From the NCBI GenBank assembly GCA_945865625.1, contig CAMBFD010000006.1:1-57322 (forward strand): 57,322 nucleotides of DNA, written 5' to 3'. A model generated the notes under the pieces. It saw only the letters and a program-made list of their open reading frames with translations. It was not told the origin of the DNA and made no database searches. Within the stretch, counting starts at the first letter, position 1, and each line of letters starts with the position of its first letter. The translations under genes were made by a program, and so were the position numbers. Shown here in pieces: positions 3,825 to 38,857 of this stretch. The DNA comes from Chitinophaga pinensis. Lineage in GTDB: Bacteria; Bacteroidota; Bacteroidia; NS11-12g; UBA955.

Positions 3825-4631
3825 ATGACAAAAGTAGCCATCATTACTGGAGCAAGCAGCGGCATTGGCCGTTCTCTGGCACTCAAAGGTGCTGAACTAG
3901 GCTATCATTTGTCGCTATTCGCCAGAAATATGGCCGCACTTGAATCCCTCAAAAGTGAGATTCAACAATTTTCTTCCGTAGAAGTATTATTGGTAAAAGG
4001 CGATGTAAGCATACATGATGACTGTGCTCGTCTTATAGACCAAACGGTTGAGAAATTTCATCATATTGACATTCTCATCAACAACGCAGGCATTAGTATG
4101 CGTTCATTATTTAAGGATGTGGATTTGAAGGTTATTGAATCTTTAATGAATACAAATTTCTGGGGTACAGTTTACTGTACGAAATTTGCACTTCCGCACC
4201 TACTCAATAGAAAAGGTACTGTAGTTGGTGTTTCTTCGATTGCTGGATTCAAAGGTTTACCCGCAAGAACGGGTTATTCAGCAAGTAAATTTGCAATGCA
4301 TGGATTTCTTGAAAGTTTGAGGGTTGAAAATCTCAAAACCGGACTAAATGTATTGATTGCTTGTCCGGGTTATACAAATTCAAACATTCGAAACACCGCA
4401 CTAAATAAAGATGGATTCGCTCAAGGCGACACCCCATTGAATGAAAGTAAACTTATGTCTTCAGAAAAGGTTGCCATGGAAATTTGGAACGCCATTGAAA
4501 AGCACAAACGATATTTAATTCTTACGCTTCAAGGAAAATTAGCTGTATTTTTAAATAAGGTTTCAACCAGACTCACCGATATTTTAACGTATAATGTCAT
4601 TAAAAAAGAACCAGATTCACCATTTAAATAA
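3825..4631 (+). CDS. SDR-family NAD(P)-dependent oxidoreductase
   Basis: TGASSGIGRSLA, NNAGISMRS and GYSASKFAMHGF motifs. The ATG directly follows the previous stop codon. Confidence 0.9.
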   Translation: MTKVAIITGASSGIGRSLALKGAELGYHLSLFARNMAALESLKSEIQQFSSVEVLLVKGDVSIHDDCARLIDQTVEKFHHIDILINNAGISMRSLFKDVDLKVIESLMNTNFWGTVYCTKFALPHLLNRKGTVVGVSSIAGFKGLPARTGYSASKFAMHGFLESLRVENLKTGLNVLIACPGYTNSNIRNTALNKDGFAQGDTPLNESKLMSSEKVAMEIWNAIEKHKRYLILTLQGKLAVFLNKVSTRLTDILTYNVIKKEPDSPFK

Positions 4632-4632
4632 A

Positions 4633-4741
4633 TTTAAAGTTTAATGTTTAGCGTTTAAAGTTATTGATATTGATTTAGTTTCAAAAATTATATCAAAACG
4701 CAAAACCAACATTAAACTTTAATCAATAAACTTTAAACTCC
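4633..4741. repeat. intergenic GTTTA-type inverted repeat, element A
   Basis: TAAAGTTTAATGTT (4635-4648) has an exact reverse complement at 4708-4721. GTTTAGCGTTTAAAG (4646-4660) recurs inverted at 37914-37928. Confidence 0.6.
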
Positions 4742-4747
4742 AAATAA

Positions 4748-5305
4748 ATGAATATCAACGAAGTTATAACCGTATTTTTTACACTTTTTGCTGTAATTGA
4801 CATGTTAGGATCAATTCCTATTTTGGTATCATTGAAAGAAAAAATTCCAGATATTAATCCTACAAAAGTCACTTTGGCGTCTGCGGCCTTAATGATTGGT
4901 TTTTTATATGTTGGAGATTATTTCTTGAAATATTTGGGTATCGACATTAAGTCGTTTGCCCTTGCCGGAAGCATTGTGATGTTCATTTTAGCATTGGAAA
5001 TGGTTTTGGGAATCGATATATTCAGAACTGATCCCAATACTCCAAGCGGCAGTATTGTGCCAGTTGCATTTCCTATCATAGCGGGTTCAGGAACATTAAC
5101 AACGATTTTATCTTTAAAGGCTATTTACGATAAAAGCACTATTTTAATGGGAATTTTGCCAAATATATTGTTGATTTTCATTGTTTTGAATACAACAGGG
5201 TTCATTGAAAAGAAAATTGGAAAAGCCGGAATGATTACAATCCGTAAATTTTTCGGAGTGATATTGCTTGCAATCGCTGTAAAGTTGTTTAAGGGGAATA
5301 TTTAA
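4748..5305 (+). CDS. MarC family membrane protein
   Basis: Polytopic MarC/UPF0056-like sequence: FFTLFAVIDMLGSIPILVSL, PVAFPIIAGSGTLTTILSL. Confidence 0.85.
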   Translation: MNINEVITVFFTLFAVIDMLGSIPILVSLKEKIPDINPTKVTLASAALMIGFLYVGDYFLKYLGIDIKSFALAGSIVMFILALEMVLGIDIFRTDPNTPSGSIVPVAFPIIAGSGTLTTILSLKAIYDKSTILMGILPNILLIFIVLNTTGFIEKKIGKAGMITIRKFFGVILLAIAVKLFKGNI

Positions 5306-9599: not shown

Positions 9600-9627
9600 G
9601 GACGCAATAAATTGCGTCCTTTTTTTT
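9600..9627 (+). terminator. intrinsic terminator after the S9 peptidase gene
   Basis: Perfect 9-bp stem GGACGCAAT-AA-ATTGCGTCC followed by T8. Confidence 0.9.
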
Positions 9628-9629
9628 CT

Positions 9630-9637
9630 TATATTTG
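9630..9637 (+). promoter_or_regulatory. Bacteroidota -7 element for the HMG-CoA lyase gene
   Basis: TATATTTG matches TAnnTTTG and sits directly after the terminator T-tract, 43 nt before the likely GTG start. Confidence 0.45.
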
Positions 9638-9680
9638 TGTAAATCCAAATTTAGGGGGAAAAGGAAAATCTATAAAACAA

Positions 9681-10550
9681 GTGAAGCAGAGAGATTTTAC
9701 AATTGTTGAATGCCCCCGAGATGCCATGCAAGGCATTTCACACTTCATCCCAACTGAAAAGAAGATTGAATATCTAAAAGCATTGTTAAAGTGCAATTTT
9801 GAGGTATTGGATTGTGGGAGTTTTGTAAATCCCGAGTCGGTACCCCAGATGGCAGATACAAATGAAGTAATCAATGCCATTTCTGAGATTGATACACCCA
9901 CAAAGTTATTGGTTATTGTTGCCAATGAGCGTGGCGCATTGAAGGCTGTAATTCATCCTAAGATTAAGTATTTAGGGTACCCATTTTCACTGAGTGAAAC
10001 CTTTCAAAGAAGAAATACAAATTCAACCCAACAAGATTCATTTATACGTCTTGCCAAAATTCAAGAAATTGCAGTTTCATCTGGAAAAGAAGTTGTGGCA
10101 TATATCAGCATGGCTTTTGGCAATCCATACGGCGATGAATACCATGCAGAGTTGGCTATGCAATGGGCCGATAAAATTGGCAGCATTGGCGTTAGAATCA
10201 TTAGTTTAGCCGATACCACAGGATTGGCAAATGTGAACGACATTCAAAAGATATATTCTAATTTAATTCCTCATTTCCCCCATATTGACTTTGGAGCTCA
10301 CTTCCATGCGAAGGCCTTTGATTGGGAAAATAAAATACAAGCTGCATTAGACGCTGGATGCAAACGATTTGATGGTGCTTTATTGGGCTTTGGAGGTTGC
10401 CCATTTGCAAAAGATGATCTCACCGGGAATATTCCGATGGAGCAGTTGATTCCATATTTAAACGAAAACGGTTATATTCAAAAAAAATATGGCATTGATA
10501 GCGAGTTACTTGACTTAGCTTCAACCGTTTTTGCAAAAGGGGAAATTTAG
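9681..10550 (+). CDS. hydroxymethylglutaryl-CoA lyase
   Basis: VECPRDAMQGI, GAHFHAKAFDWENKIQAALDAGCKRFDGALLGFGGCPFAKDDLTGN. The GTG start at 9681 is preferred to the track TTG at 9612, which lies inside the terminator stem. Confidence 0.88.
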   Translation: MKQRDFTIVECPRDAMQGISHFIPTEKKIEYLKALLKCNFEVLDCGSFVNPESVPQMADTNEVINAISEIDTPTKLLVIVANERGALKAVIHPKIKYLGYPFSLSETFQRRNTNSTQQDSFIRLAKIQEIAVSSGKEVVAYISMAFGNPYGDEYHAELAMQWADKIGSIGVRIISLADTTGLANVNDIQKIYSNLIPHFPHIDFGAHFHAKAFDWENKIQAALDAGCKRFDGALLGFGGCPFAKDDLTGNIPMEQLIPYLNENGYIQKKYGIDSELLDLASTVFAKGEI

Positions 10551-10606
10551 GGTTTAGGGTTTAGAGTTTTGGTTTAACGATTTCATAAACCTTTATAAAC
10601 CCTAAA
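10546..10606. repeat. intergenic GTTTA-type inverted repeat, element B
   Basis: TTTAGGGTTTA (10546-10556) pairs with TAAACCCTAAA (10596-10606). GGGTTTAGGGTTTAG (10550-10564) is identical to 37871-37885. Confidence 0.6.
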
Positions 10607-37870: not shown

Positions 37871-37940
37871 GGGTTTAGGGTTTAGTGTTTAGTGTTATTT
37901 CGATACAGTCCCTCTTTAAACGCTAAACTTTAAACATCAA
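37871..37940. repeat. intergenic GTTTA-type inverted repeat, element C
   Basis: GGGTTTAGGGTTTAGTGTTTAG... pairs imperfectly with CTTTAAACGCTAAACTTTAAAC. It shares exact 15-mers with elements A and B. Confidence 0.6.
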
Positions 37941-37951
37941 ATTTCCCCATC

Positions 37952-38857
37952 GTGTTACTCTCAGAAGTTATCCAATATAAAAACCTTCCACTCATTGCTC
38001 AAAAAGCGATGGAAGGATTTATTACGGGGCTTCACAACAGTCCGTTTCATGGATTTTCTGTGGAGTTTTCTGAACATAGGTCCTACAATGTTGGGGAAAG
38101 TGTCAGGAATTTGGATTGGAAATTGTTGGCAAAAACCGATAAGAAATACATCAAACAATTCAATGAAGAAACAAATTTGAAATGTCATTTATGGGTCGAC
38201 GTTTCAAAAAGTATGCATTATCCATCACCTGCTCACGACAAATTAAAGTTTGCCATTTTAGCATCGAGCAGCATTGCCTACATCTGCACCAATCAACGTG
38301 ACGCATTTTCATTTTCATTGATGGCAGAATCTGATATCGTTTGGAAATCAGAAATGAAATCAACCCAAACACATTTCCGGAATTGCCTTGCAAATATTGA
38401 ACCTCTGTGGGAAAATCAGCCACTCTTTGTAGAAACCAAAATGGCTTCAACAGAGCTTTCGGCAACTGTAAAACGAAGAAATTTAGTTGTCATTTTCAGT
38501 GATTTATTGTGGGATGAAAATCAAAATGAACAAGAAAAAACCTTCTGGGAAACTTTATCCATTTTAAGGTTCCAAAAATGTGAAGTTTTGGTGATACAAA
38601 TTGCGCACATTCCTACTGAAATCAATTTAGATTTAGGTGAAGCGCCGGTAAAATTCGTAGATTTGGAGACCAATGAAGTTTTAAAATTACAGCCTCACGA
38701 AATCCAACAAGTCTATTCCGACCACCAAAATGAGGCACGTAAAGAATTAGAAAACAAATGCTTACAAATGGGCATTTCATACTTTTTTGCCGACATTAGC
38801 GAGCCAATTCAAGAGGTTCTTCTTGAATTTTACGTAAAACGCAGCAAGATTCTTTAG
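37952..38857 (+). CDS. DUF58 domain-containing protein
   Basis: FSEHRSYNVGESVRNLDWKLLAKTDKKYIKQFNEETNLKCHLWVDVSKSM is the characteristic DUF58 motif series. Confidence 0.88.
   Translation: MLLSEVIQYKNLPLIAQKAMEGFITGLHNSPFHGFSVEFSEHRSYNVGESVRNLDWKLLAKTDKKYIKQFNEETNLKCHLWVDVSKSMHYPSPAHDKLKFAILASSSIAYICTNQRDAFSFSLMAESDIVWKSEMKSTQTHFRNCLANIEPLWENQPLFVETKMASTELSATVKRRNLVVIFSDLLWDENQNEQEKTFWETLSILRFQKCEVLVIQIAHIPTEINLDLGEAPVKFVDLETNEVLKLQPHEIQQVYSDHQNEARKELENKCLQMGISYFFADISEPIQEVLLEFYVKRSKIL

Follow-up and report, generated by a model that had tools for sequence, protein, structure and literature searches.

A degenerate GTTTA heptamer array between an SDR gene and marC as a probable locus of a lineage-specific intergenic repeat family in Bacteroidota

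Results

The gap between the SDR and marC-like genes of the window (the whole 57,322-nt stretch of DNA that was analysed) carries element A, a degenerate array of 7-nt units that faces its own inverse. We regard this element as one locus of a lineage-specific family of heptameric tandem repeats, the main cause of which would be slippage combined with a positional filter, and we assign this reading a probability of about 0.65.

The SDR gene (3825-4631, PF00106) and the marC gene (4748-5305, PF01914) enclose, upstream and downstream, a gap of 116 nt (4632-4747) that forms an imperfect inverted repeat. Its left arm (4632-4662, + strand) starts directly 3' of the SDR stop codon (4629-4631) and comprises the units ATTTAAA, GTTTAAT, GTTTAGC and GTTTAAA followed by GTT. 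A spacer of 45 nt (4663-4707), unrelated to the spacers of other elements, separates it from the right arm (4708-4738), which reads GTTTAAAGTTTATTG... on the - strand, ends 9 nt before the marC ATG and is missing from the sister species G006, G010 and G013. Both sequence matches listed in the original prediction were recovered: TAAAGTTTAATGTT at 4635-4648 has an exact reverse complement at 4708-4721, within a perfect inverted stretch of 15 nt (4634-4648/4708-4722), and GTTTAGCGTTTAAAG at 4646-4660 has an exact inverted copy at 37914-37928. The inverted-repeat layout that it described for the gap also stands, but a degenerate 7-nt tandem array facing its own inverse is a better description than a single long palindromic unit. 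Folded as RNA, the gap reaches -22.9 kcal/mol (z -5.5).

Two further elements lie in the window. The left arm of element B (37873-37896, + strand; GTTTAGG, GTTTAGT, GTTTAGT, GTT) is located 3' of an intrinsic terminator, and its right arm (37914-37942, - strand) just upstream of a DUF58 gene (37952-38857). The left arm of element C (10545-10568, + strand; ATTTAGG, GTTTAGG, GTTTAGA, GTT) overlaps the ORF at 9612-10550, whose TAG stop codon (10548-10550) is part of the arm's first unit. The right arm of this element (ATAAACCTTTATAAACCC; 10585-10602, - strand) is of a longer-period family; element C as a whole (10545-10602) is a GTTTARN arm facing a longer-period TAAACC arm, i.e. two arms from different families.

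Repeat family and copy number

A search of the whole genome from which the window derives (G000; 2.22 Mb, 153 contigs, 96% complete) with three GTTTANN units (GTTTANNGTTTANNGTTTA) returned 96 matches, compared to 0 for the reversed control. Almost all are intergenic, which confirms the predicted dispersed, intergenic and inverted repeat family and places its copy number above background. Runs of at least three GTTTA units with period 7 are found 42 times in intergenic and 2 times in coding DNA of a 592-kb sample, and period-7 runs of the wider core G.TTA do not occur (0) in shuffled intergenic DNA. These degenerate heptad arrays follow the consensus ATTTARN(GTTTARN)nGTT (R, A or G). Most of the free dinucleotides are AT, GC, AA, GG, GT, AC or GA, i.e. 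RN. Arms start with ATTTA in 29 of 54 cases in G000 and 21 of 36 in G004, and commonly end with GTT.

Families with a GNTTA core and a period of 9 nt (GATTAGAAG, GTTTATAAG) or 8 nt (GCTTATNN) occupy the same gaps in the same inward orientation as the 7-mers (L062, L066, L067, L069, L073, L075, L076, L077), and periods 7, 8 and 9 are interchangeable within one gap. A distinct intergenic repeat of 14 nt, of the GACGCTTCGCTGTT / CAACAGCGAAGCGT type, adjoins heptad arrays at L072:5144-5280 and L070:26-140, and also in G004. Contigs L079, L083 and L085 start in or near arrays, and the element B locus is where contig C59 of G004 stops. It may be that the arrays interrupt short-read assembly and that the true copy numbers are higher. 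Each GTTTAR unit holds a stop codon. A function as 'stop codons in all frames' was considered and rejected as not general, because the corresponding strand of the GTTTAC[AG] dialect of G015 has no stop and units of 9 nt close a single frame only.

Orientation at gene borders

Gene context and orientation were analysed in stretches of G000 totalling 1.29 Mb of the 2.22 Mb. Arrays begin at the edges of coding sequences, mostly directly 3' of stop codons, and the GTTTA strand points away from the gene. With coding-sequence edges taken from a simple ORF finder, whose apparent gene ends could be moved by a few nucleotides by the stop-codon-rich arrays, the median distances to the coding sequence behind and ahead of the array are 28 versus 91 nt in G000 (p=0.0005), 16 versus 75 nt in G004 (p=0.0015), 31 versus 133 nt in G011 (p=0.04) and 15.5 versus 103 nt in a scan of GTDB species (p=2e-5); G015 follows the same direction without significance (79 versus 169, p=0.08). 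Arrays at most 15 nt from a coding sequence have it behind rather than ahead in ratios of 19:0 (G000, mostly at stop codons), 13:1 (G004), 4:0 (G011) and 55:23 (GTDB scan). Base-composition bias at gene edges was rejected as the cause of this polarity, as neither the array-free G006 nor G000 has a matching skew.

Since arms are bound to edges and point outwards, two arms in one gap would be expected to face inwards. In the analysed 1.29 Mb, 28 gaps contain both orientations; all but one (27/28) begin with '+', and none has the order '-+'. The arm orders are '+-' in 19 gaps, '+-+-' in six, '+-+' in two and '-+-' in one. The inward order holds for convergent, codirectional and divergent genes, as well as for pairs of a 7-mer and a 9-mer arm. 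Among gaps of at least 50 nt in G000, arrays are present in 19 of 77 convergent, 17 of 226 codirectional and 3 of 106 divergent ones (convergent versus divergent, p=1e-5).

Hairpin formation

When the free dinucleotides of 25 arm pairs from G000 and G004 were compared, 23 matches were observed versus 22.3 for re-paired arms (p=0.46), and covariation in the arms is thus absent. A selected stem would give matching dinucleotides within a locus; since the arms match no better than re-paired ones, the arrays are not a conserved hairpin. Arm pairs of the same period fold better than shuffled sequences (z -1.3 to -5.5) because the core is common to both arms, and the element A hairpin would likewise be a by-product of two inward arms that have the GTTTA core in common. 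In seven pairs that combine arms of different periods, no folding is seen (z +0.4 to -2.5) although the order is unchanged; on this evidence and that of the re-pairing test, selection for a hairpin was rejected. The original prediction had also raised a regulatory RNA. This idea was abandoned: arms do not covary, no Rfam family is matched at the gathering score anywhere in the window, the hairpin is missing from the orthologous gap of G006, G010 and G013, and the non-folding cross-period pairs retain their orientation.

The best of the competing explanations, which we nevertheless consider unlikely, is a bidirectional terminator or mRNA 3'-end hairpin, in which inward arms would fold in RNA transcribed from either side, ending transcripts or stabilising them, hence the preference for convergent gaps. 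The folding of same-period pairs, including element A (z -5.5), and the enrichment of arrays in convergent gaps agree with it, and classical terminators occur in 8 of 19 array-bearing versus 36 of 58 other convergent gaps. This last difference is a trend only (p=0.18), and a role of arrays as substitutes for classical terminators was rejected on this account; many array gaps, such as that of element B, also have a classical terminator. The lack of arm covariation and the preserved orientation of cross-period pairs argue against such a function, as does the location of the element A hairpin between formerly abutting genes, where the sister species do not have it.

Orthologous loci and distribution

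In distant genus-mates (G001, G002, G003, G007, G009, G011 and G012), the distance from the SDR stop to the marC start is only -4 to 9 nt. The close relatives G006, G010 and G013, with MarC proteins 95-96% identical to that of G000, have (GTTTAGG)2-5 at the SDR stop codon, in two or five units and without an inverse arm, while in G000 the units are diversified and the inverse arm is present. This series indicates that element A grew stepwise. The net outcome would be a tight SDR-marC gene pair that is now split by a 116-nt leader. In G010 and G013, the array in this gap is followed by TAAGTTTG, a sequence similar to TAnnTTTG, the -7 element of Bacteroidota; a promoter of its own may have arisen there for the separated marC.

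Element B has no counterpart in any genus-mate for which the orthologous gap was recovered, and in close relatives the DUF58 start follows almost directly after the thioredoxin terminator. Relatives show no intermediate state of element B, and a one-step insertion is therefore possible at this locus, at which no target-site duplication is evident.

Between orthologous arrays of G000 and G004, flanks and termini are kept and the number and type of units differ. An array on the Lake Erken contig L175, which is 93.7% identical to G000 over 3.7 kb, reads [GC,GA,AT,GA,AT] compared to [GC,GC,GA,AT] in G000, a unit-level change consistent with a two-unit slip. These comparisons show that orthologous loci differ by the gain, loss and replacement of whole 7-nt units, as would occur in replication slippage or unequal exchange. 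Array counts within the genus range from 0 to 135. Of 297 species sampled from the phylum, 24 have four-unit arrays, and 21 of these 24 belong to the window's own class. Among the matches listed, those with a name come chiefly from Bacteroidales, Flavobacteriales and Saprospiraceae, and a few from other phyla. Dialects differ by species (GTTTACR, GTTTATG, GTTTAAG).

Discussion

We propose that slippage makes the arrays and that a positional filter decides where they stay. Arrays would survive where they interrupt no promoter and where they leave the leader immediately 5' of a start codon rich in A and poor in G. Bacteroidota ribosomes prefer A-rich, weakly structured leaders (PMC6847099). The filter at starts could be such a leader, as the inverse arm, (NYTAAAC)n, is rich in A and contains little G. 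Two features are not accounted for by slippage alone, namely the outward polarity at stop codons and the use of ATTTA as the exact start of half of the arms in G000 and G004.

An alternative is that the arrays are bound by a heptad-reading protein, DNA- or RNA-binding (e.g. cold-shock-like or a translational regulator), which acts at gene ends. A fixed 5-nt core with free dinucleotides, the defined ATTTA terminus in G000 and G004 and the strict polarity are in line with this idea, and TAACTGA repeats located 5' of starts have been proposed to act in translation (PMC4679880). We find it improbable, however, given that the core and the NN dialect vary between species, that periods 7, 8 and 9 can replace each other within a gap, and that the majority of genus-mates, and of species in the phylum, lack arrays.

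The REP/MITE-like origin suggested as one option by the original prediction, i.e. a non-autonomous mobile element with terminal inverted repeats that is moved in trans by a transposase, has in its favour the inverted arms with ATTTA...TAAAT ends and the absence of element B from the orthologous gap of all relatives examined, but it is very improbable, since neither PF01797 (Y1/RAYT), the associated transposase gene that had been suggested as a check, nor PF00872 was found in the 96%-complete genome in searches that included positive controls, the length is variable, the spacers are unrelated, single-armed intermediates attest to stepwise growth at element A in relatives, and arms of different families and periods are combined. 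REP/RAYT and MITE families are likewise dispersed, intergenic and inverted. A REP/RAYT assignment was rejected for want of a Y1 HUH transposase and of a conserved short palindrome of fixed form, and a MITE assignment as copies are not near-identical and element B has no evident target-site duplication; unlike both, the GTTTARN family has none of the transposases tested for and no fixed unit, grows stepwise and mixes arms of different families.

The GTTTARN arrays resemble intergenic heptamers that Rehm et al. (2015) reported in Xanthomonas and Nostoc (GGGAATC / GGGGA(C/T)T; PMC4692102). Those repeats lie closer to their 5' neighbouring ORF, irrespective of its strand, overlap stop codons, are few in divergent gaps and form convergent inverted pairs (70 and 75 cases); their length varies between close species, and no link to mobile elements was seen (PMC4692102). 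The GTTTARN family shares the 7-nt unit with variable position, the over-representation in non-coding DNA, the variation of unit number between close relatives (G000/G004, G000/L175), the proximity of the G-strand array to the 5'-side ORF, the overlap with stop codons, the convergent inverted pairs, the avoidance of divergent gaps and the lack of a link to mobile elements. It differs in being AT-rich with two free positions, in having no quadruplex G-tracts except in pure GTTTAGG arrays, in its enrichment in convergent rather than aligned gaps, and in the combination of arms of periods 7, 8 and 9 in G000. The G4 subtype of this class (G-tracts, preference for four units) was rejected, most NN types being AT, GC or AA without GGG; apart from quadruplex capacity, the architecture agrees with that of the class point by point. 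The family is thus an AT-rich, mostly non-quadruplex Bacteroidota member of the Xanthomonas/Nostoc-type heptamer class.

TAACTGA direct repeats are known from Beggiatoaceae, Cyanobacteria and some Bacteroidetes (MacGregor 2015; PMC4679880), in a paper that does not describe the GTTTA family. Both are intergenic heptamers at gene edges with the A/C-bearing strand upstream of starts, both have shorter, repeat-free gaps in relatives, and a set 3' of a stop codon lies in reverse orientation; the TAACTGA unit, in contrast, is nearly invariant, is located mainly upstream of starts and almost never forms inverted pairs (PMC4679880). No earlier description of a GTTTA family in Bacteroidota was found in the literature searched, although one may exist elsewhere. 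The STRR heptamers of heterocystous cyanobacteria are short tandem heptanucleotide repeats between genes; they have another sequence and belong to another phylum.

Bacteria have been said to contain more heptameric repeats than expected, for which no explanation is generally accepted. The AT-rich GTTTARN family, with two of seven positions free and differing between genus-mates, keeps the polarity of the G-quadruplex heptamers and thereby separates polarity from quadruplex formation. We tentatively raise the possibility, to which we lean less than to its opposite, that one rule applies to heptamer families that are unrelated and come from three phyla or more (GTTTARN, GGGNATC, TAACTGA): both at starts and at stops, the G-bearing strand would point outwards from the gene. 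Were this rule general, such repeats would be shaped at gene borders by some shared process or constraint that has no name yet, and quadruplex formation would not be its cause. For the GTTTARN family, closely related species are at hand in which the birth of arrays can be traced gap by gap. Heptads of the reversed control pattern, ATTTGNN, also form repeats in G018, G226, G379 and other genomes of the phylum, and other heptad families therefore exist within it.
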